This document shows, in pieces, positions 6,398 to 28,720 of a stretch of 31,348 bases of DNA. The notes below the pieces were generated by a model, which saw only the letters and a list, made by a program, of their open reading frames with translations, was not told where the DNA came from and made no database searches. This DNA is from a virus: positions 1 to 31,348 of the IMG/VR virus record IMGVR_UViG_3300032046_006286. One strand, 5' to 3'. How positions within the stretch are numbered: position 1 is the first letter of the stretch; each line of letters opens with the position of its first letter. A program made the translations under genes and the position numbers.

Positions 6398-7480
6398 ATG
6401 AATTGCCTGCGCTGCCATAAGCTGCGCGTCGGCGGGCAGCTCCACGACGAGCTCTACTGCACCGCAAACCGCCCACCAGTCCGCATGTTCATGGAGGACC
6501 TCGGCCGCGGCGATTGCGGGCACGCGCCCGAATCCAAACACCAACTCTGGACCAAGGCCGAGGATGTCTGGCTGCGGCTGAATTACCAGCGGCGCGGCGG
6601 CGTCGAATGCGCCGAGTTCCTCCAACGGTCGCTCCGCATGACCTGCCGCCGCGCGCGGGAATTGGGCTTGGGCAGATGGCGGCGCCGCCTATGGACTGGC
6701 GCCGAGACCGAATATCTGCGCGAGCATTGGCGCGGCGGTGGGGAGGCGCGGAAGCGCGATCTGGCAGCTGATCTGAATCGCACCCCCGGAGCCATCGGCG
6801 CGCAGGCGAGCAAGCTAGGAATCACGCGGCGCAAAAACAGGCGCTGGTCGCTGGCCGAGTTGCGCTATCTGCGCAATCATATCTGGCGCGAATCCCTGAC
6901 TCTCATCGCCCGCGCCCTGGGGCGCACCCGGAGCGCCGTGCAGTTGGTGAAAAGGCGGAGAGGAATACCCGTCCGGCGCTTCTGGACGATGCGGCGCGTG
7001 ATGGAGCTTTTCCGCACTCGGAATGACCATCTTTTCGCCGCCGCGATCGCATCGAAGCGGTTGCCGGCAGTCGCTCGCCGCGACGAGATCGGGCGCATCA
7101 CGTGGCAGGTGCGGCCCAAGCATGTCATGGCGCTCGCGCTCCAATGCGCCCATGAATCGGCGGGTAATGGAAAGCGCGGGAGTTTGTGCTGGTTAACGAT
7201 AGACCCCGCGCGGCTGGATGCGCTGCGGAACGAATGCGATGGCGCGGCCGGCGCCGAGGAGCTATTGGAACGCTTGCGGCATGTGGTTTGCATCCGCGTC
7301 CCAGGTGCGGTGATCAAGGAATCGTATTACATCGCCGAAAAGCTCCGGCTCGCCGGACACCAGGGATCCGTGCCGAGCGGGAAGGATTATCTCCTGACCG
7401 ACGCCCCGCCCGATGCCATCGAGCGTCTGTTCATACCGAAACTTCGCGCGCGGATGCAGATCGCGCGGCACAATGGCTAG
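6398..7480 (+). CDS. Triple SANT/Myb-like DNA-binding regulator
   Basis: This 360-aa protein contains three tandem domains beginning LWTKAEDVWL (W51), LWTGAETEYL (W99) and RWSLAELRYL (W150). Each runs to a recognition-helix-like end (RRARELGL, GAQASKLGI, QLVKRRRGI). The spacing of about 50 residues and the conserved Trp/Glu pattern match SANT/Myb-like or GcrA-like repeats. A possible zinc-binding N-terminus has C3, C6, C21 and C40. The C-terminal half (residues about 195-360) is basic and unassigned. It is probably a transcriptional or middle/late gene regulator sitting just before the morphogenesis genes, where Mu keeps its Mor/C activators. That functional parallel is inference. Confidence 0.72.
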   Translation: MNCLRCHKLRVGGQLHDELYCTANRPPVRMFMEDLGRGDCGHAPESKHQLWTKAEDVWLRLNYQRRGGVECAEFLQRSLRMTCRRARELGLGRWRRRLWTGAETEYLREHWRGGGEARKRDLAADLNRTPGAIGAQASKLGITRRKNRRWSLAELRYLRNHIWRESLTLIARALGRTRSAVQLVKRRRGIPVRRFWTMRRVMELFRTRNDHLFAAAIASKRLPAVARRDEIGRITWQVRPKHVMALALQCAHESAGNGKRGSLCWLTIDPARLDALRNECDGAAGAEELLERLRHVVCIRVPGAVIKESYYIAEKLRLAGHQGSVPSGKDYLLTDAPPDAIERLFIPKLRARMQIARHNG

Positions 7481-7528
7481 CCGGCTTTGCCGCCGCCATC
7501 ACGGCCCCGGAAGGGGTGTTAGCGACCC

Positions 7529-7561
7529 ATGACGCGCATCATCTTGGGCGAGGCGCGAGAG
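7529..7561 (+). repeat. 33-bp perfect direct repeat, copy 1
   Basis: The repeat begins ATGACGCGCATCATCTTGGG and is identical to 7923-7955. The copies are 394 bp apart and flank one ORF (7573-7926). Confidence 0.95.
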
Positions 7562-7576: not shown

Positions 7577-7926
7577 GGTTCCGGCGCGGCATATGCTACG
7601 CGCCCGCGGCGCAAAGTGCGCGGCGCCTGGGACATGCTGCGCGCCGCCTAGAGCGCGAGCGCCAGCGCGCAGGGTTATTCGCCGGCGATGTGCACGAAAC
7701 GCCCCATGGGCGGCTGGCCCGACTGGATGCCGCCCATTGCTCCTGCGTGCGGCGCCTACGCGAGGGCGACGCGGCTGCCTGGATGCGCGCGCGGTGTCTA
7801 CTCGCGGCCATGCCGCAAGCGCAAGCCTCTGCTCTGCGGCGCGAGTGGAACGGCTCGCGCTGGCTCCCAGGTGGGCCGGAGTATCTGCTCGATCTCATTC
7901 GTAGTCGGCAGACGGTGAGAGCATGA
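7573..7926 (+). CDS. Hypothetical 117-aa protein between direct repeats
   Basis: The ATG at 7573 overlaps the short upstream reading as ATGA, and the TGA overlaps the ATG at 7923. The protein is Arg/Ala-rich, with four cysteines (ICYAP, HCSCVRR, ARCLL) and a better-defined C-terminus (ALRREWNGSRWLPGGPEYLL then DLIRSR). It fills a stretch with no other plausible gene and could be an inserted cargo gene. The high Arg content means the frame could still be spurious. Confidence 0.5.
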   Translation: MRFRRGICYAPAAQSARRLGHAARRLERERQRAGLFAGDVHETPHGRLARLDAAHCSCVRRLREGDAAAWMRARCLLAAMPQAQASALRREWNGSRWLPGGPEYLLDLIRSRQTVRA

Positions 7927-7955
7927 CGCGCATCATCTTGGGCGAGGCGCGAGAG
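7923..7955 (+). repeat. 33-bp perfect direct repeat, copy 2
   Basis: It is identical to 7529-7561 and provides the start of the 36-aa ORF. Confidence 0.95.
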
Positions 7956-8033
7956 CCCCCGATCGAGATCAAGGCCGAATACGTGGACATGATTCGCAAG
8001 CGTGTGGGAAAGGCGGGGGAAAATGTGGTATAA
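7923..8033 (+). CDS. Small 36-aa protein
   Basis: It reads MTRIILGEAREPPIEIKAEY and continues to RVGKAGENVV. Its start is the second copy of the 33-bp repeat, and it overlaps the preceding stop as ATGA. The final codons GTG-GTA-TAA coincide with the -10 element of the promoter at 8026-8034. No family is recognised. Confidence 0.45.
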   Translation: MTRIILGEAREPPIEIKAEYVDMIRKRVGKAGENVV

Positions 8034-8034
8034 T
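8026..8034 (+). promoter_or_regulatory. Extended -10 promoter TGGTATAAT
   Basis: A perfect TATAAT at 8029-8034 is preceded by TG at the extended -10 position. No TTGACA-like -35 lies at 16-17 bp spacing (the bases there are GGAAAG or similar), which is usual for extended -10 promoters. The context TGTGGTATAAT is identical to the promoter at 13649-13676. A start near 8041 would put the nested hairpin 8039-8133 at the very 5' end of the transcript. Confidence 0.6.
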
Positions 8035-8038
8035 GGCG

Positions 8039-8133
8039 GCGGAAAAACCAGATAAGGCGCGCGAGATGACCGCAGCGGGACGGCCCCCGGGCAACCGGGG
8101 CCGCTGATCCAACTGCGGTTTTGGCTTTTCCGC
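8039..8133 (+). ncRNA. Nested hairpin leader or small RNA upstream of small terminase
   Basis: Outer arms GCGGAAAA (8039-8046) and TTTTCCGC (8126-8133) pair. CCA/TGG continue after one mismatch, then ACCGCAG (8069-8075) pairs with CTGCGGT (8113-8119). An inner GC-rich stem with AGCGG/CCGCT and CCCC/GGGG ends in a GCAA (GNRA-type) tetraloop. The downstream arm contains GGTTTTGGCTTTT, so the element can act as an intrinsic terminator or attenuator. A 24-codon reading from 8033 crosses it, but the structure suggests RNA function. It lies between a promoter and the terminase genes. Confidence 0.55.
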
Positions 8134-8201: not shown

Positions 8202-8987
8202 ATGCCGAACCTCGTCACGACCACGATTAGCCTTCCCCCGATCCGCCTCAGCTCGCGCTGCGCGATCTGCGGGATTTGGGAGACCAAGCCCGCCCTCTTC
8301 GACGAGATAAACGAGAAACTCCTCGGCGGGGTTGGACAAACGAAAATCGTCGCCTGGTTGCGCGCGAAGCACAAGTTCCGCACCAATCAGAACTCGCTGA
8401 GCCGCCACCTCAACCGCCACCTCATGCCCTACTTCGAGGACGCGCTGCTGATCGAGCGCACCGCGCTGGCAATCGCGCAGGCGACGGGGAGCCAAAGCAC
8501 GATGTCCCTCGCGGGAGTGATCCTGCGCATCCTGGCATCGAAGATCCACGACGCCCTGGGCGGCCTCGATCTCAAACGGATCAAAAACCTCGATCCGCTG
8601 GACCTGATGAAGGCCGCGACCGCTCTCGCCTCGACCATCGCCTATGCCGACCGCGCCGCCTCCGATTCCGCGCTCAAGGCCGAGGAGTTGGAGCTGCGCA
8701 AGCTGCGCCTAGCGAAGAGCAAAGAGGAGCTGGCGGCGCTGGCCGTGGACTGGCTGCGCAAGCAGCTCGCCGGGCGGCCCGATCTCGTCGAGCACCTGCG
8801 CGCGCAACTGGCGCTGCCGGAACCCGAAATGGAGCACAGGCTTAAGCCTGTGCCTCCAGGGGAGGCTGAACGCAGGCTGAAGCCTGCGGCTCCAGGGAGA
8901 GAGGCGGGCGGGCTCAAGCCCGCCGCTCCAGGGAACGCGGGACACAGGGTTAAGCCTGTGGCTCCACGGGACACGGATGAATCCTGA
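8202..8987 (+). CDS. Putative terminase small subunit (Mu gp27-like position)
   Basis: This 261-aa protein uses the ATG at 8202, with AGAGG at 8188-8192. The in-frame ATG at 8121 is rejected because it lies inside the hairpin element and reads through a repeat. C20/C23 (SRCAICG) precede an HTH-like region (QTKIVAWLRAKHKF, SLSRHLNRHLMPY) that could bind packaging sites. A long helical region with a charged coil follows (residues about 140-200). The last 50 residues are four in-frame copies of a hairpin repeat giving a repeated LKP(V/A)(P/A)PG peptide. It overlaps the large terminase start by 11 bases. The call rests on position and architecture rather than a sure family match. Confidence 0.65.
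   Translation: MPNLVTTTISLPPIRLSSRCAICGIWETKPALFDEINEKLLGGVGQTKIVAWLRAKHKFRTNQNSLSRHLNRHLMPYFEDALLIERTALAIAQATGSQSTMSLAGVILRILASKIHDALGGLDLKRIKNLDPLDLMKAATALASTIAYADRAASDSALKAEELELRKLRLAKSKEELAALAVDWLRKQLAGRPDLVEHLRAQLALPEPEMEHRLKPVPPGEAERRLKPAAPGREAGGLKPAAPGNAGHRVKPVAPRDTDES
8830..8970 (+). repeat. Four GGAG palindromes at exact 36-bp spacing, in frame
   Basis: The palindrome centres CTTAAG, CTGAAG, CTCAAG and GTTAAG lie at 8841, 8877, 8913 and 8949, exactly 36 bp (12 codons) apart. The stems differ (ACAGGC, GCAGGC, GCGGGC and ACAGGG versions) with mostly compensating changes. The array encodes the whole C-terminal tail of the small terminase. Confidence 0.93.
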
Positions 8988-10683
8988 CATCGGTAAGCTG
9001 CTCGATGATCTCACTGCGCCCGGGATCGAGGCGCCGCTCGATTTTTTCGCGGCCCACATCCACCCGCGCCGCAAGCCGTGGTCGCTGGATCGCCACGAAT
9101 ACCTGCGGCAGATCGTCGAGGACCCCGCGCAGCACATCGTCATCGAGAAAGCCGCGCAGCTCGGCGCGAGCACGGTCATGCTCGGGCGCATGATCCTCGC
9201 CTGCCTTCACGCGCGCAAAGTCGGGTATTTCTTGGAGTCCCGGCCCTACATGACGACCTTCGTGCAGGATCGCTTCGACCCCTTGATCGCCGCCGATCGC
9301 GCGCTCGGCCGCGCGGTGGTCGAGGGCCAGCATGAGACGGAGGACATCGCCGGTCGCCGCAAGCGGGCCGATAACGTCCGCCTCAAACACATCGGCCCCG
9401 GCAGCGCGTACTTCTGCGTGACCCAGAAACGCTCGGACATCAAGTCGGTGGACCTCGACCTGGTGATCCTCGACGAGGTCGCCGAGCTCGATCCCGAGCT
9501 CGTGGATTGGGTGGATGATCGCCTGCTGCACAGCGATTACAAGCGGCGCTACGAGTTGTCGCAACCCGATGTGCCCAACTGGGGGATTGACGAGCGCTTC
9601 AGGGAATCCGATCAGAAGTATTGGGCGCTACGCTGCCCGCGCTGCCGGGTGCGCACTATCGTCGAGCTTGAGTTCCCCGCGTGCCTGGCATGGATGGAGG
9701 GCGCGCGACGCATCCCCGCCGGCGACTTCGTGCTCGATGACGGTTGCCGCGGCCTGAGCCCCGATCATTTCCGCATCGTCTGCCCGCGCTGCTTCGCGCG
9801 CCTCGATCCGTCAGCCGGCGAATGGGTCGCCCAAAATCCCGGCGCGCGGATCTCCGGGTATCATCTATCGCAGCTCTATGGCCCCGCAATTGACGCCCCC
9901 GCCATCGCCCGCAAGTGGATCGGCGCCCAGAAGCGCCCGTCGAAGATGGCCAATTTCTACATCTCCTATCTCGGCCTGCCCTATGCCGGCGACCGCCAGC
10001 CGCTGACCGAGGAATTGCTGACCAGCAAGTGCGGCGACTGGCGCATCTCGCCCACCGGCCAGGGCGAGAATCTGCCGACCGGCGTGGCGTTCGCGGGGAT
10101 TGACGTGGGCGACATCTGCCACCTGGTCGTCGCGCGGCGCGGCGATGATGGGAAGTTCCGCGTGTTGTGGGCCGAGAAGACCGGCTCGTGGGCCCTGCTG
10201 GAGAAGCGCCTGCGGGATTATGACGTGCGCATGGCGGTCGTAGATGCCATGCCCTATAAGACTAGCGCCAAGGCATTAGTACGCAGTTTCAAGCGCGCGG
10301 CGATCTCCTATATGACCGGGCAGCAGACGCGTTATGCCATCGAGGACGGCGAGACGGATCCGGTGCACGTCATCAACTGCGACCGCACCGAGGCGAGCGA
10401 CGCCCTGGTGGATGCAATCACCGCCGGCGACCTGCTGCTGCCGCGCGCGAGTGAGCCGGTAGTCCCTGAGATCAAGGCGCATCTGAAAAACCTCATCAAG
10501 GACAAGCGCGCGGACGGCACATTCGCGTACAAGCGCGGCCTCGACGACCATTATGCGCAGGCGCTGATTCGGATGTTGCTGGCGGCCGGCGGCAGCCGCG
10601 CGCTGGGCATCGGTGTCTGCCACCATCTGGGCGGCGCGGATAAATGGATCATCGGCAAAAGCTCGGCCCCGAGGAGATGGTAA
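8977..10683 (+). CDS. Terminase large subunit (GpA/Mu gp28-like)
   Basis: This 568-aa protein is the packaging motor and nuclease that cuts and pumps DNA into the procapsid. The ATPase domain has a deviant Walker A E57-KAAQLGAST-66, like the GpA family, and a Walker B VILDE with D166/E167. A zinc ribbon follows with CPRC at 220-223 and CPRC at 269-272. The nuclease domain starts at GIDVGD (D376), with further acidic candidates in VVDAM and near the C-terminal GLDDHYAQALI. It overlaps the small terminase by 11 bases, and its TAA overlaps the portal ATG (TAATG). The length fits the family. Confidence 0.9.
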   Translation: MNPDIGKLLDDLTAPGIEAPLDFFAAHIHPRRKPWSLDRHEYLRQIVEDPAQHIVIEKAAQLGASTVMLGRMILACLHARKVGYFLESRPYMTTFVQDRFDPLIAADRALGRAVVEGQHETEDIAGRRKRADNVRLKHIGPGSAYFCVTQKRSDIKSVDLDLVILDEVAELDPELVDWVDDRLLHSDYKRRYELSQPDVPNWGIDERFRESDQKYWALRCPRCRVRTIVELEFPACLAWMEGARRIPAGDFVLDDGCRGLSPDHFRIVCPRCFARLDPSAGEWVAQNPGARISGYHLSQLYGPAIDAPAIARKWIGAQKRPSKMANFYISYLGLPYAGDRQPLTEELLTSKCGDWRISPTGQGENLPTGVAFAGIDVGDICHLVVARRGDDGKFRVLWAEKTGSWALLEKRLRDYDVRMAVVDAMPYKTSAKALVRSFKRAAISYMTGQQTRYAIEDGETDPVHVINCDRTEASDALVDAITAGDLLLPRASEPVVPEIKAHLKNLIKDKRADGTFAYKRGLDDHYAQALIRMLLAAGGSRALGIGVCHHLGGADKWIIGKSSAPRRW

Positions 10684-12605
10684 TGCGCATCGGCCCGCTG
10701 GATTTCAGCATCCATAGATTCGCGGAAAAGAAACCTCGGCCGCCCCTGGGCGAGACCGGCACCTCCGGCCTGAATATTTGGCGTGGGCTCGTCGCCGAGG
10801 AATATAATCCCGACCTGCGCGGCCCCGCGGCCTACGAGACCTATGACAAAATGCTGCGCGGGGACGGCCAGGTGCAGGCGGTCGAGCTGGCGATCTGGTT
10901 GCCGATCGGCGCCGCGGCGTGGAGCGTCGAGCCGGGCGACGACAGCGCCGCCTCGCGCGAAGCGGCCGATCTGATTTTGAGCAATCTGTTCGGCGGCATG
11001 ACCATTTCCTTCGCCGAGGTCCTGCGCCACGCGCTGCTCGGCGCGCTGACCGGGGTCGCCCTGCTTGAGCATGTTTGGGAGATCCGCGACGGCCTCGCCG
11101 CCTGGCGCAAGCTCGCGCCGCGCGCACCGAAAAGCATCCGCCAATGGGACATGGACATCGGCGGCGGCGTACAGGGAGTGGTGCAATGGGCGCGCGATGA
11201 GGGCGGCGGGTTTCGGGATGTGCGGATCCCAATCGAGAAGCTGATTCGGTTAACCTGGCGCGGCGATTATGGCAACCCCGAGGGGCGCGCGTTGCTGCGG
11301 CCCGCATACAAGCATTGGTTCACCAAGGACTGGCTCTACAAGTTCGCCAACATCGCGGTCGAGCGCGGAGCCGTCGGCGTGCCCGTCGGCCATCTGCCCG
11401 AGGGCTACAGCAAAACCGACCAGGATGATTTCCTGGATCTGCTCAAGGATTGGAAAGCTTCTGAATCCTCGGCTTTCGCGCTTCCCCCCGGCTATACCAT
11501 CGAGTTGTTGCAGATGCAGGTCCGCAGCCAGGGGTTCATGGCGCTGATCGAGCACCACGACGTTATGATCGCGCGCTCGGTGCTCGCGCAGTTTATCAAC
11601 CTGGGGACTACCGCCAGCGGATCGCGGGCGCTCTCGGAGGGGCAGACTGGGTTTTTCATTCTCGCCCTCAATACCGTCGCCGATTGGTTTGCGGAGCACA
11701 TCAACCGCTACGGCATCCCGCGCTGGTGCGCCTATAACTATCCGGGCCTCAAGGCGCTGCCGACGCTCGGCCATTCGAGCATCGGGACGGTGCTTGATCC
11801 GGGCGGCATCGCCAACGGTTTGGCGCAGCTCTGCGCGGGGCGGCTGCTGACCCCGGATGATGATCTCGAAAACGTGGTGCGCGGCTGGTTCGGGTTGCCC
11901 CCCCTGCCCGAGGAGCATACCCGAGCAACCGAGCAGCCAATAGAACGGCCGGTCGTCGCACATGGAGCACAGCCGCTCTCGGCTGTGGTCCGCGGCTCCA
12001 CCCGCCGGTACGATCCCGAACCGCACTTGGCCGCCGGGCGGCAGATGGCCGCAGACGAGCAGCGCTTCGAGGCGGCAATGGCGGAGGTTGTGACCGACCA
12101 GGAGCAACGGCTGCTCGCCAAGCTGGAGCCAATTATCGCCGATTTCAAGGCGGCGCCGGATGAGGAGAAAGGACGGCAGATTTCGCGGATGCAGGCGGTG
12201 AATGTCCCGCTCGTCGCCAAATATGAAAATCTCCTGCGCGGTTGGCTATGGAGCCTATTCAGCGTCGCCCGCGAGCGCGCGGCCGCCGAGTTCGGCGCCA
12301 AGCCAGGGGCGGTCACGAGCGCGATGCGCCAATGGATCGCCGCCAAAGCCCAGGTGTTGGCGCAGGACCACAGCGAGAAGCTGCGGGCCCAGGTTCTCCA
12401 TGAATTGCTCGATGTCATCCGCCAGGACCTTCCCACCGGCGACATCCTCAAGGTCCTGGGGCAGGCGGCGCGCGGGCGGGCGCGAGTGGATTTGACGGAC
12501 GGTTTGCGCGAGGCCGGCGAGCAACTCATCGAGGTCATCAACAACGCCCTGATCGGCATTCAGACGCGCCCTGGAGCACAGGCGCTCCCGCCTGTGGATG
12601 TATGA
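10683..12605 (+). CDS. Portal protein (DUF935 / Mu gp29-like) with C-terminal extension
   Basis: This 640-aa protein forms the dodecameric DNA channel of the head. The ATG at 10683 is chosen because GAGGAG (10671-10676) sits 6 bases upstream and TAATG couples it to the terminase. Upstream in-frame starts lie inside the terminase gene. DUF935-type features include GDGQVQAVELAIWLPIGAAAW, RPAYKHWFTKDWLYKFAN and QFINLGTTASGSRALSEGQ. After residue about 425 comes a repeat-encoded segment (AHGAQPLSAVV). An all-helical region of some 200 residues follows (e.g. AMRQWIAAKAQVLAQDHSEK), resembling the N-terminal part of Mu-F/SPP1-gp7 proteins. A second repeat supplies the last residues (GAQALPPVDV) and stop. 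Confidence 0.88.
   Translation: MRIGPLDFSIHRFAEKKPRPPLGETGTSGLNIWRGLVAEEYNPDLRGPAAYETYDKMLRGDGQVQAVELAIWLPIGAAAWSVEPGDDSAASREAADLILSNLFGGMTISFAEVLRHALLGALTGVALLEHVWEIRDGLAAWRKLAPRAPKSIRQWDMDIGGGVQGVVQWARDEGGGFRDVRIPIEKLIRLTWRGDYGNPEGRALLRPAYKHWFTKDWLYKFANIAVERGAVGVPVGHLPEGYSKTDQDDFLDLLKDWKASESSAFALPPGYTIELLQMQVRSQGFMALIEHHDVMIARSVLAQFINLGTTASGSRALSEGQTGFFILALNTVADWFAEHINRYGIPRWCAYNYPGLKALPTLGHSSIGTVLDPGGIANGLAQLCAGRLLTPDDDLENVVRGWFGLPPLPEEHTRATEQPIERPVVAHGAQPLSAVVRGSTRRYDPEPHLAAGRQMAADEQRFEAAMAEVVTDQEQRLLAKLEPIIADFKAAPDEEKGRQISRMQAVNVPLVAKYENLLRGWLWSLFSVARERAAAEFGAKPGAVTSAMRQWIAAKAQVLAQDHSEKLRAQVLHELLDVIRQDLPTGDILKVLGQAARGRARVDLTDGLREAGEQLIEVINNALIGIQTRPGAQALPPVDV
11963..12000 (+). repeat. 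GGAG-type hairpin repeat inside portal gene
   Basis: TGGAG, then CACAGCC and GGCTGTG arms around GCTCTC, closed by GCGGCTCCA. It is translated in frame at the boundary between the portal core and its helical C-terminal extension. The stem is the CAGCC version, also found at 18481. Confidence 0.85.
12572..12599 (+). repeat. GGAG-type hairpin repeat forming the portal C-terminus
   Basis: TGGAG with CACAGGC and GCCTGTG arms, read in frame as PGAQALPPVD just before the stop codon. The 109 bases between this gene and the next start hold no other recognisable element. Confidence 0.87.
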
Positions 12606-12714
12606 TGCTTTTTTTGCGCCAGGATGCCCCAGAATCGCTTGAGGGGTACGGAAGTACCAGTCGCGGCCTGAACGCCAGAATTGACCGCTATTGACCGGGG
12701 TCAGGAGCGAAACC

Positions 12715-13104
12715 GTGACGGCGTTGGAAGCCCTGAAACGCGAATCGCGCATGAGTTACCGGCAAATCGCCGATGAGTTGGGCTTGAGTAAGACCCATGT
12801 GCTGGGCCTCATTCGCGGGATTTATCCCTATCCGCAGGATGGCAATGTGCGGCGCATCCGCCGCCTGCTGATCGAGCGCGCGCGCCTCGAACGGTCATCC
12901 GATCCCGACTTCCTCGCCCAGATCCGCCAAGTCGCCGTGCCGTTCCTCCTGGAGCGCATCGTCCTGGAGCACAGGCACTCCTGTCTGTGTCTCCCGATGC
13001 CTGCCCATCCGCGTAAATCCGCGGCCAAGCTTCCCCTCCCACCCCTCCGGTCCCATCTGTGTGAATCTGTGCAATCTGTGGATGGCGTTCCCTCCCATGC
13101 CTGA
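12715..13104 (+). CDS. Small HTH protein, MuB-N-terminal-like, with repeat-derived tail
   Basis: About 129 aa from GTG at 12715, with AGGAG at 12703-12707 (7-base spacing). The upstream TTG at 12691 lacks such a site. Residues about 14-55 (SYRQIADELGLSKTHVLGLI, then RGIYPYPQDGNVRRIRRLL) match the pattern of an HTH followed by G-x-Y and a helix, as in the N-terminal domain of MuB. The final 45 residues are encoded by three kinds of dispersed repeat, so the functional protein may end near residue 83. Its place between portal and the Mu-F-like gene is unusual for a DNA-binding protein. Confidence 0.6.
   Translation: MTALEALKRESRMSYRQIADELGLSKTHVLGLIRGIYPYPQDGNVRRIRRLLIERARLERSSDPDFLAQIRQVAVPFLLERIVLEHRHSCLCLPMPAHPRKSAAKLPLPPLRSHLCESVQSVDGVPSHA
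12965..12989 (+). repeat. GGAG-type hairpin repeat inside HTH gene
   Basis: TGGAG with CACAGGC and a slightly degenerate GTCTGTG arm. It is translated as LEHRHSCLCLP. Confidence 0.82.
13009..13084 (+). repeat. AATCTGTG-type repeat with CCGCG palindrome
   Basis: CCGCGTAAATCCGCGG at 13009-13024 is followed by ATCTGTGTGAATCTGTGCAA and CTGTGGATGG (13054-13084). The second part recurs at 28669-28700, again just before an ATG. Here it lies across the HTH gene end and the start of the Mu-F-like gene. Confidence 0.8.
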
Positions 13105-13648: not shown

Positions 13649-13676
13649 TTGACAATCGCGCTCCCTGTGGTATAAT
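13649..13676 (+). promoter_or_regulatory. Consensus sigma70 promoter
   Basis: A perfect TTGACA (13649-13654) and a perfect TATAAT (13671-13676) are separated by 16 bp, with TGTGGTATAAT adding an extended -10. This is the strongest promoter-like sequence in the window. It begins just after the stop of the upstream gene. Transcription would begin near 13683, directly ahead of the structured element 13754-13828. Confidence 0.85.
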
Positions 13677-13682
13677 AACCGC

Positions 13683-13829
13683 GCAGTCAAATCAAATACT
13701 CGCGGCGCCGCCGGCTGAACGCCTGACCAGAGGGCCGAGCGGTAGTCTGATCTAAAAGCCGAGGAGATCCCGCCCGGGGCGTGGTGAGCATCGCCGCCCC
13801 GGAATCCGGGACAATCTCCGCGGCTTTTC
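13683..13829 (+). ncRNA. Predicted short structured transcript ending in terminator-like hairpin
   Basis: The region from the predicted start to the T-run is about 147 nt with no convincing ORF. Its 3' part (13754-13828) folds on inspection as AAAAGCCG with CGGCTTTT, GGAGAT with ATCTCC, CCCG with CGGG, CCGGGGC with GCCCCGG and GGTGA with TCGCC around a GCA loop. This ends in TTTT and fits an intrinsic terminator, or an attenuator in the leader of the protease-scaffold operon. The 5' half (13683-13753) holds a GCGGCGCCGC palindrome. It could be a free small RNA or a regulated leader, and the sequence alone does not decide. Confidence 0.6.
13754..13828 (+). terminator. Long bidirectional terminator-like hairpin
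   Basis: The perfect outer arms AAAAGCCG and CGGCTTTT enclose a GC-rich nested stem. A-run and T-run symmetry means it could terminate RNA on either strand. It lies 43 bases upstream of the protease ATG at 13871. Confidence 0.7.
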
Positions 13830-13870
13830 GCATTTACTGGAGCGCCCCGATTGCTCGGGGCGAATAGAAG

Positions 13871-15262
13871 ATGACCGAGCGCGAAATCGAACGCAGAGCC
13901 GGCTACGCCTTCAGCGACCTCAACCTCGCCGAGCCAGTCGCCGATCAGCCCTCCCAGCGCTGGCTGCAACTGGTGCCCATCGGCTCGTGGGAGCATTCGG
14001 ATTACGGCCAGCTCGACATCACGCCCGAGCGCATCGCGCGCATGGCCGCAAATTATGCGGCCGGCCTCCCCGGCATTGATCTCCCGGTTGACATCGAGCA
14101 CAACTGGGGCGAGGCGGTCGGCTGGATCCAAAACGTCGAGGCCCGCGCGGATGGCCTGTGGGGCCTGGTGGATTTCAATATCAAGGGACAGCAACTCCTC
14201 GCCGATCGCGCCTACCGCTACATCTCCCCCGAATGGTTCCCCGACTGGAAGGACTCGCGCGATGGGAAGCACTACGAGGACGTGGTGACGAGCATCGCGC
14301 TCACCAACCGCCCGTGGTTCAAGGATTTGCCGGCCATAGTCAACTCCGAATCCGAGCGCGGCCGCACCTACCTGGTGCCCGCCTATCGTTTCCGGTGGGA
14401 GAAGAAGGGTACGGAAATCTGGTATCGCGTGCGCGACCCCGGCGATTTCGATCCCGATACTTTCAGGTCCCTGGATATGCCCGGAGTCAAGGGCATTCGC
14501 ATGGTCATGGGCCGCCTCAAGCCCGAGAATGCCCCCAAGGGCCACGACCCGAAAAGCCTGGTCATCCAGGCCCTGCGGTTCGATCTCGACGAATGGACAA
14601 TGGACAAAGCGAAGGCTTGGGTCGCCAAGCACAAGGATAGGCTGAAAGCATCCGCCCCCGCGGATGAAATTAGTCGCGCCATCCGCGCGGCGGATAGAGG
14701 AGACAATCCCATGCCCGAAGTCCCGAATCCCGATGTCAAGCCCGACCCGGCGCCAAAGCCTGACCCCGGCGCCAGTTCGATCACCATGACCGAGTTCAAT
14801 GCGGTGAAGGCGGAAGCGGCCGCAAGCAAGGCCGCCGCGGAAGCCGCGAACAAGGCGGCCGCCGACGCCAATGCCCGCCTCGATCGCGCGCAGCTGCATG
14901 AGCGCATCGCCGGCCTGCGCTTCGGCGAGAACAAGCAGCGCGTGCTCGCGCCGGCGATGGTCGAGCAGCTCACGGATACCGCCCTGCGGTTCGCCGCCGG
15001 CGATGAGCGCGAGAAGTTCCTGACCGGCATCGCGGGCCTGTCATTCGTCGAATTGGGCGAGCGCGGCGATGGCGGCCACGAGCCGACCGGCGACGCCATC
15101 CAGCGGTTTAGCGAGGCGGTCGCCGCGAAGATCAAGGCCGATCCGAAGCTCCAGTACGCCGATGCCATGCGCCTCGTCGCCGCCGAGAATCCGCAGCTCG
15201 ACGCCGAGCGCGCTCGCGCGATCCGCGGCCAGCAGCCGGTGGTCCGCAGCGCCGCGAAGTAA
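13871..15262 (+). CDS. Mu I-like prohead protease with inserted domain and scaffold
   Basis: This 463-aa protein is the capsid maturation protease and scaffold precursor. The N-terminal part (residues 30-160) fits the Mu I family: VDIEHNWGEAVGWI with H77, and YRYISPEW with S119, the likely catalytic His and Ser. Residues about 164-257 form an extra domain (IWYRVRDPGDFDPDTFRSL, LKPENAPKG, LDEWTMDKAKAWVAKH) not expected in Mu I. Residues about 281-463 are the Ala/Lys-rich, coiled-coil scaffold with its own internal start. The gene follows the promoter and hairpin at 13649-13828. Its stop is followed within 5 bases by the 6 x 29-bp repeat array. Confidence 0.85.
   Translation: MTEREIERRAGYAFSDLNLAEPVADQPSQRWLQLVPIGSWEHSDYGQLDITPERIARMAANYAAGLPGIDLPVDIEHNWGEAVGWIQNVEARADGLWGLVDFNIKGQQLLADRAYRYISPEWFPDWKDSRDGKHYEDVVTSIALTNRPWFKDLPAIVNSESERGRTYLVPAYRFRWEKKGTEIWYRVRDPGDFDPDTFRSLDMPGVKGIRMVMGRLKPENAPKGHDPKSLVIQALRFDLDEWTMDKAKAWVAKHKDRLKASAPADEISRAIRAADRGDNPMPEVPNPDVKPDPAPKPDPGASSITMTEFNAVKAEAAASKAAAEAANKAAADANARLDRAQLHERIAGLRFGENKQRVLAPAMVEQLTDTALRFAAGDEREKFLTGIAGLSFVELGERGDGGHEPTGDAIQRFSEAVAAKIKADPKLQYADAMRLVAAENPQLDAERARAIRGQQPVVRSAAK
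14711..15262 (+). CDS. Nested scaffold protein (Mu Z-like internal start)
   Basis: An in-frame ATG at codon 281 of the protease gene is preceded by AGAGGAGA at 14696-14703, a strong ribosome-binding site. It would yield a 183-aa scaffold (MPEVPNPDVKPDPAPKPDP, then a coiled coil). This mirrors Mu, where gene Z starts inside I and makes the scaffold separately. Translation from this start is predicted from the ribosome-binding site and the Mu parallel. Confidence 0.75.
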   Translation: MPEVPNPDVKPDPAPKPDPGASSITMTEFNAVKAEAAASKAAAEAANKAAADANARLDRAQLHERIAGLRFGENKQRVLAPAMVEQLTDTALRFAAGDEREKFLTGIAGLSFVELGERGDGGHEPTGDAIQRFSEAVAAKIKADPKLQYADAMRLVAAENPQLDAERARAIRGQQPVVRSAAK

Positions 15263-15267
15263 TGTAA

Positions 15268-15441
15268 TGGAGCACGGGCGCTCCCGCCCGTGAATCTGGA
15301 GCGCGGGCGCTCCCGCCCATGAATGTGGAGCGTGGGCACTCCTGCCCGCGAATCTGGAGCGCGGGCACTCATGCCCGCAAATGTGGAGCGCGGGCACTCC
15401 TGCCCGTGAATGTGGAGCGTGGGCACTCCTGCCCGCGACTC
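15268..15441 (+). repeat. Six tandem 29-bp GGAG hairpin repeats
   Basis: Units start at 15268, 15297, 15326, 15355, 15384 and 15413, each 29 bp with the form TGGAGCRYGGGC, a CTCC-type loop, GCCCGYG and AATS. The last unit decays after its stem. Stem bases vary between units while mostly keeping pairing. The array fills the junction between scaffold stop and the next ribosome-binding site (AGAGAGAGG, 15448-15455). Confidence 0.95.
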
Positions 15442-17530: not shown

Positions 17531-18475
17531 ATGCCTGAGCCAGGCGAACTTTACCTCGATCTCGATCTGACGAACGTCAGCATCGGGTATCGCAACCCCG
17601 GCTATGTGGCCGAGGGGCTGCTGCCGATCATCGGCGCCCGCGCGAAGTTCGGGAAATACCCGATCTTCGGGTTCGAGCGATTTGGGATTCCGCGCACACT
17701 GCGCGCCCCGCGCACCGCGTCCGAGCGTATTGATTGGACGCTGACTCGCGGCGTCTTCGAGTGCGATGAGCACTCGCTGGAGATGGCGCTCGATGACCAG
17801 GAACGGGATCAGCAGGGCTCCATCAATGCCGAGACGACCACGGTCGGCACCCTGACCGACAACCTCCTGCTTGCGCGCGAGAAGCGCGTCGCCGACCTGG
17901 TGACTGATGACTCGATCATCACCCAGGGCACCACTCTCGTCGGCGCCGACCAGTGGAATGACGTCGCCGGCACCTCGACTCCGGTCGAGAACATCCAGGC
18001 CGCGCACCAGACCATCCTGGAGGCGACCGGCCTGCGGGGCAACACGCTGCTCATTCCTGGGCCGGTCTTCAATGCGCTCGAAACGCACCCCCAGATCCGC
18101 GACTATCTGAGTTTCACCGGCACGGGCGGCACCGATGCCCGGCTGGTGACGCCGCAGATTCTCGCGGTCATCTTCCGCGTGCAGACGGTCCTGATCGCGG
18201 ACACGCTTTACAATGCGGCCAATGAGAACCAGGCCGCGGACCTCGACCCGATCTGGGGCGATAACGTGATTCTCGCGCACGTGGTCGCGGGCCCGGCGCT
18301 CGAAGTCCCGCGCCTCGGCGCGACCATCAACTGGGAGCAGCGCGGAGTGCCGCGCACCATTGACCGCTACCGCGAGGCGCAGATCAAGTCGGATGTCTTC
18401 GTCTGCGCCGAGCATGTAGATGAGGTCATCATGTGCGCGGCCGCCGGCTATCTGATCCAGGATGTGCTGGGCTAA
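17531..18475 (+). CDS. Major capsid protein
   Basis: This 314-aa protein is close in size to Mu T (305 aa). It has the alpha/beta composition of HK97-fold capsid proteins, with an N-terminal extended arm (MPEPGELYLDLDLTNVSIGY), a spine-like region (TDNLLLAREKRVADLVTD), the segment GNTLLIPGPVFNALETHPQI, and the C-terminal REAQIKSDVFVCAEHVDEV typical of capsid ends. It follows the cement gene and precedes connector genes, the standard order. The spacer before it has weak Shine-Dalgarno sequence but the same GCGAAAC-type leader as the cement gene. Hairpins on both sides may set its mRNA level. Confidence 0.85.
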   Translation: MPEPGELYLDLDLTNVSIGYRNPGYVAEGLLPIIGARAKFGKYPIFGFERFGIPRTLRAPRTASERIDWTLTRGVFECDEHSLEMALDDQERDQQGSINAETTTVGTLTDNLLLAREKRVADLVTDDSIITQGTTLVGADQWNDVAGTSTPVENIQAAHQTILEATGLRGNTLLIPGPVFNALETHPQIRDYLSFTGTGGTDARLVTPQILAVIFRVQTVLIADTLYNAANENQAADLDPIWGDNVILAHVVAGPALEVPRLGATINWEQRGVPRTIDRYREAQIKSDVFVCAEHVDEVIMCAAAGYLIQDVLG

Positions 18476-28668: not shown

Positions 28669-28700
28669 CGAATCTGCGAAATCTGTGCAATCTGTGGATT
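28669..28700 (+). repeat. AATCTGTG-type repeat before fibre gene
   Basis: GAATCTGCGAAATCTGTGCA and TCTGTGGATT, following the hub stop by a few bases, match the element at 13054-13084. Both copies have the same orientation and both precede a CCCATGCC-type gene start. Confidence 0.82.
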
Positions 28701-28720
28701 GCATCCCTCGGGGTGCCCCC

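Follow-up and report, generated by a model that had tools for sequence, protein, structure and literature searches.

Promoter-then-hairpin modules at both late operons of a Mu-like transposable phage

Genes and features of the two modules

The window, by which we mean the whole stretch of DNA analysed, is a complete IMG/VR entry of 31,348 bases (65% GC) from a Mu-like transposable phage, and carries all its main genes on the + strand. The Mu-like gene set comprises a Mu-type transposase, a MuB-like ATPase, a large terminase, a Mu portal, a fragment-like Mu F ORF and a Mu I protease, and the capsid protein belongs to a transposable-phage family (Table 1). The ORF immediately 5′ of the large terminase gene matched nothing in Pfam or PHROGs and is probably the small terminase, judging solely by its position. 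Identity is 22-31% between the capsid and phage capsids, and 33-37% between the terminase and its matches in a few Acidobacteriota genomes. Five single-protein scans of viral_contigs (protease, portal, terminase, capsid and transposase core) recovered no relatives, and an alignment of eight capsid sequences was too divergent for use as a search query.

Table 1. Coordinates of the genes, predicted transcription signals and repeats discussed in the text
Feature	Position	Strand	Remarks
26-nt repeat TGGAGCRYRGGCRCTCCYGCCYRYG	1785, 1982, 5758, 8140	-	
D5-like DNA-binding regulator	6398..7480	+	5′ of P1; phrog_323 E 1.3e-16 (PHROGs)
P1, second copy of extended -10 TGTGGTATAAT	8024..8034	+	no good -35
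Nested hairpin, then TTTTGGCTTTT	8070..8118	+	terminator score 31.9, top of + strand
ORF immediately 5′ of large terminase	8202..8987	+	
Large terminase and Mu-type portal	8977..12605	+	3′ of P1; Pfam/PHROGs
26-nt repeat TGGAGCRYRGGCRCTCCYGCCYRYG	11962, 12571, 12964, 15267-15441, 17433, 17461, 18480, 18602, 23902, 23960, 24011	+	
Mu F-like ORF	ends 13645		directly 5′ of P2
P2, sigma-70-type promoter	13649..13676	+	TTGACA-16-TATAAT, TRTGn extended -10
Predicted leader or small transcript, ~146 nt	13683..13828	+	predicted start; fold
5′ stem-loop of predicted transcript	13704..13747	+	fold
Nested hairpin, AAAA 5′ and TTTT 3′, intrinsic-terminator-like	13754..13828	+	fold, terminator score
Small palindrome TGGAGC-GCCCCGATTGCTCGGGGC-GAAT	13838..13865	+	5′ of protease
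Mu I-like head maturation protease	13871..15262	+	first gene 3′ of P2; PF10123 E 1.2e-14, phrog_328 E 2e-19
Major capsid protein	17531..18475	+	3′ of P2; phrog_1005 E 2.8e-65

Promoter P2 combines a -35 hexamer (TTGACA, 13649-13654), a 16-nt spacer and a -10 hexamer (TATAAT, 13671-13676) with TG at -15/-14, the extended -10 forming the 11-mer TGTGGTATAAT at 13666-13676. All 12 of the 12 positions agree with the sigma-70 consensus. It is the sole 12/12 site in the record, against 0.00055 expected under a first-order Markov model of this 65% GC sequence (16-18 spacing, both strands), and the runner-up scores 10/12 with a 19-nt spacer. Transcription is predicted to start at about 13683, and the distance from the -10 to the start of the PF10123 protease gene is 195 nt.

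Folding of the region 3′ of P2 (13683-13832) gave -69 kcal/mol, z -2.7, and that of the nested hairpin that abuts the TTTT tract gave -46.2 kcal/mol, z -5.0, which was equalled by none of 200 shuffles. The d'Aubenton-type terminator score of this hairpin is 21.9 on the + strand, the second-highest of that strand, and 18.8 on the - strand; to judge from its sequence, the hairpin is bidirectional in form. Its long stem and T run of only four caused a simple terminator scan to overlook it. Within the interval, the ORFs are of 37 and 28 aa on the + strand and 48 and 20 aa on the - strand, none with a convincing start; nor does the interval contain a tRNA or match any Rfam family. Searches with the gap DNA gave chance matches only against phages, and, against 396 Acidobacteriota genomes, nothing longer than about 60 nt, which we put down to chance; the hairpin pattern AGCCGNGGAGAT-N30-60-ATCTCCNCGGCT had no match in viral_contigs. 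A candidate leader peptide with a GTG start (13781-13867), ending 4 nt 5′ of the protease gene, was set aside because the only Shine-Dalgarno-like sequence, GAGGAG, lies about 13 nt off and within the stem. An earlier note on this DNA had claimed a near-perfect promoter with an extended -10, about 147 nt with no convincing ORF and a long nested hairpin with a TTTT tract, all of which the figures above bear out. Its placing of the promoter inside the head operon needs correction: P2 lies at an operon boundary, between the Mu F-like ORF and the protease gene.

The 11-mer TGTGGTATAAT occurs twice in the record, on the same strand, against 0.0007 copies expected. The second copy, P1, is likewise followed by a hairpin in a structured region (8041-8132; -46.7 kcal/mol, z -4.3). 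When the entire record was scanned, the hairpins just 3′ of P1 and P2 had the highest terminator scores of the + strand (31.9 and 21.9), and the leaders to the start codon are of about 160 nt at P1 vs 188 nt at P2. The -10 of P1 overlaps a 36-aa ORF at its 3′ end, the stop codon being inside the TATAAT. An exact 34-nt repeat (7528-7561 and 7922-7955) takes in an ATG and 11 opening codons (MTRIILGEARE); the copy at 7922-7955 is the opening of the 36-aa ORF that ends in P1.

Since promoters, like terminators, tend to lie in the longer intergenic gaps, of which there are few (about five of at least 150 nt), the raw figures overstate how striking the double co-occurrence at P1 and P2 is; allowing for gap placement and order, we roughly estimate its chance at a few percent. 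A one-off accident is nevertheless unlikely, because the promoter core is shared, the order is the same and both operons match those of Mu Plys and PI. The combination of TGTGGTATAAT and a hairpin, 5′ of terminase and 5′ of protease, provides a search signature for related prophages.

Comparison with Mu, other transposable phages and lambda

The late promoters of phage Mu are lys, I, P and mom (PMC4461284). P2 lies directly 5′ of the gene I-like protease, and a late promoter at that point follows the Mu plan, because Mu gene I encodes the protease and is the site of PI. The claim of the earlier note that the Mu scheme has no such late control at this point was therefore wrong, since Mu PI occupies the same place (PMC4461284). 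The likeness to Plys and PI is one of map position, with one module before the lysis/packaging block and one before protease gene I, and extends to a terminator-like hairpin within the same gap.

Mu late promoters have poor -10 and -35 elements and depend on the activator C. P2, in contrast, matches the consensus fully, a match that calls for no activator, and no member of the Mor/C family was found among the ORFs scanned. The order of the elements also differs: the terminator-like hairpin of Mu (17908-17947, score 11.9) precedes the element shared by the Mu lys and I promoters, TCCCGCACCT at 18004, whereas in the present phage promoter precedes hairpin at both late operons. From its similar distance to both start codons, we take TCCCGCACCT to be the 10-bp match named in PMC4461284.

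A non-coding gap of at least 190 nt before the protease gene was present in all nine transposable phages checked, including Mu, the gap of D3112 being filled with an anti-CRISPR locus. The G-I gap of Mu, 196 nt long in its annotated record, also contains the gyrase cut site (17879). The corresponding gaps measure 190 nt in B3, 214 in Bhz63, 226 in phiSHP3, 237 in Lsp-JY19, 250 in AFS-2018a, 275 in RR1-B and 284 in YPCBV-1, compared with 225 in the present phage; that of D3112 is expanded and contains AcrF2 and two small ORFs. The gap of Rhizobium phage RR1-B contains a strong intrinsic terminator (positions 7388-7410 of locus L006; score 45.8). No promoter of P2 quality was found in any of the pre-protease gaps of GC-rich phages. 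Mu-like proteases were found in Acidobacteriota, and the gaps 5′ of these contained no promoter of 8/12 or better; the motif TGnTA(T/A)AAT was absent from the + strand of all 17 relative loci.

Lambda pR′, its terminator tR′ and the Q protein (PMC4604602) offer a further comparison. As in the pR′-6S-tR′ arrangement, a strong promoter of constitutive type would yield a short RNA ending at an intrinsic terminator, with the late genes beyond; judged by sequence, a strong sigma-70 promoter and an intrinsic terminator do lie within about 200 nt of each other here. Lambda is a phage of another type, however, with one such leader vs two in the present phage, and has the Q gene next to the promoter, whereas the neighbours here are the D5-like protein 5′ of P1 and an HTH ORF 5′ of P2. 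No match to the Q family was found in Pfam or PHROGs among the scanned ORFs. Because no Q-like gene was seen, the resemblance is one of apparent logic only and not of family membership.

Possible roles of the modules

What recurs at both late operons is a promoter sequence followed, in the same order, by a high-scoring terminator-like hairpin; from this we infer that transcription starts and stops at the modules and that read-through is regulated. Tentatively, and with slightly less than even confidence, we favour a model drawn from the sequence in which P2 would serve the head operon as its late promoter, located where Mu has PI, with an early terminator in its 188-nt leader that is read through on induction, and in which P1 would behave likewise. 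Host RNA polymerase with the housekeeping sigma factor would initiate at P2 without an activator, and the hairpin would act as an intrinsic terminator, so that most polymerase would halt after about 146 nt and the protease and capsid genes would not be expressed in the lysogen. Once the prophage is induced, polymerase would pass the hairpin with the help of a phage factor, and the P1 module (8024-8118) would play the same role for the packaging operon. The leader model is supported by the perfect and unique promoter, the strong hairpin with its T run and the PI-like position, and also by the identical 11-mer at the heads of both late operons, the top-ranking pair of + strand terminators and the similar leader lengths. 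Against it stand the short T run at P2 (TTTTCGCATTT), a stem unusually long for a terminator, and the lack of a -35 at P1, where the -10 also overlaps the end of an ORF. The alternatives offered in the earlier note, a small RNA or a leader with a terminator, were the right pair, and the second copy at 8024-8118 adds weight to the leader.

The chief rival to the leader model is a stand-alone, moron-like unit in which P2 and the terminator would produce a small RNA of about 146 nt from the known insertion site that separates the G-type head gene from the protease gene, an explanation that we consider unlikely. Such an RNA could counter host defence, for example as an RNA anti-CRISPR, or have mRNAs of the host or the phage as targets. 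In P. aeruginosa Mu-like phages, anti-CRISPR genes are found in plastic regions of the moron type (PMC4378225), and AcrF2 and its two small companions occupy the counterpart gap of D3112. The P2 interval lies between two conserved phage genes with a promoter and a terminator of its own, at the same insertion site as in D3112, and no protein reads convincingly from it. It thus shares with the D3112-like G/protease morons and anti-CRISPR loci a gap bounded by promoter and terminator, here without a protein-coding gene, but unlike them it recurs at another operon, and a single inserted unit does not account for a promoter core and hairpin that are also present before the packaging operon. The RNA anti-CRISPRs (Racr) are similar in being short phage RNAs made from a strong promoter in an intergenic region, yet no CRISPR-repeat-like sequence was recognised by eye in the present phage. 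The short, chance-level DNA matches that were all the 396 Acidobacteriota genomes gave may also tell against an inserted unit of this kind.

It is less probable still, and in our view distinctly unlikely, that the hairpin serves to terminate transcription from the upstream operon (and, being bidirectional, any antisense transcription) while P2, an ordinary strong late promoter, reads through it sufficiently, or that it protects the 5′ end of the head mRNA. The symmetry of the hairpin, with AAAA and TTTT at its ends, and the hairpins in the same gap of Mu and RR1-B would fit such a role, but the Mu hairpin precedes PI, where it does not block the promoter, and this order is reversed here at both late operons. 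A gap maintained for some role of the DNA itself, for instance as a strong central gyrase site like that of Mu, with the promoter or hairpin secondary, seems highly improbable: the gap lies at 44% of the record, near its middle, and its Mu counterpart does hold the gyrase cut site, but this explanation would lead one to expect neither a perfect promoter nor the other module at 8 kb.

Returning to the leader model, our guess from position is that the D5-like protein encoded before P1 is the read-through factor, and the HTH ORF before P2 could be involved, again from its position alone. The D5-like protein, of 360 aa, apparently contains three tandem HTH repeats (Myb/SANT-like) and resembles GcrA weakly, below threshold (E 0.16). 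It counts against the leader model that no known antiterminator, Q-like, Mor/C-like or other, was found among the ORFs tested (Pfam and PHROGs); if the model is true, the read-through factor would be a new antiterminator to look for. To our knowledge, what is known of late control in transposable phages comes mainly from the Mu activator C, and our literature search found no transposable phage with late antitermination, a further point against the model. The arrangement is real and unusual, a variation on established late control at a known control point. We give a rather low probability to the reading of a transposable phage with constitutive late promoters, unlike the activated ones of Mu, in which early terminators are overridden by a phage factor and one promoter core is shared by two leaders. 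Should both late operons indeed be preceded by terminated leaders, the Mu-like group would have evolved or borrowed a second logic that has until now been linked to lambdoid phages.

Dispersed repeats and other hairpins

The palindromic repeat TGGAGCRYRGGCRCTCCYGCCYRYG, of 26 nt, is scattered through the record in about 20 copies, at gene junctions and within genes, among them a six-copy array with a 29-nt period before 15464. The small palindrome just 5′ of the protease gene is apparently a diverged copy of the dispersed repeat, the family assignment being our own reading. The commonest form of the 26-nt repeat had no exact match in genome_contigs or viral_contigs. Five stretches matched a degenerate form, and every one belongs to an Acidobacteriales MAG, a hint as to the host.

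Other dispersed repeats, of the ACCACAGAG.GCAC.GAGA and AATCTGTGCAATCTGTGGAT types, are present at 235-285, 1906-1956, 13064-13091 and 28680-28707. Repeats of this kind litter the genomes of some soil bacteria and are unusual in a phage. A further hairpin, at 12552-12618 at the end of the portal gene, is itself one of the palindromic repeats; GCTTTTTTTGCG comes directly after it, and the terminator score is 17.6.
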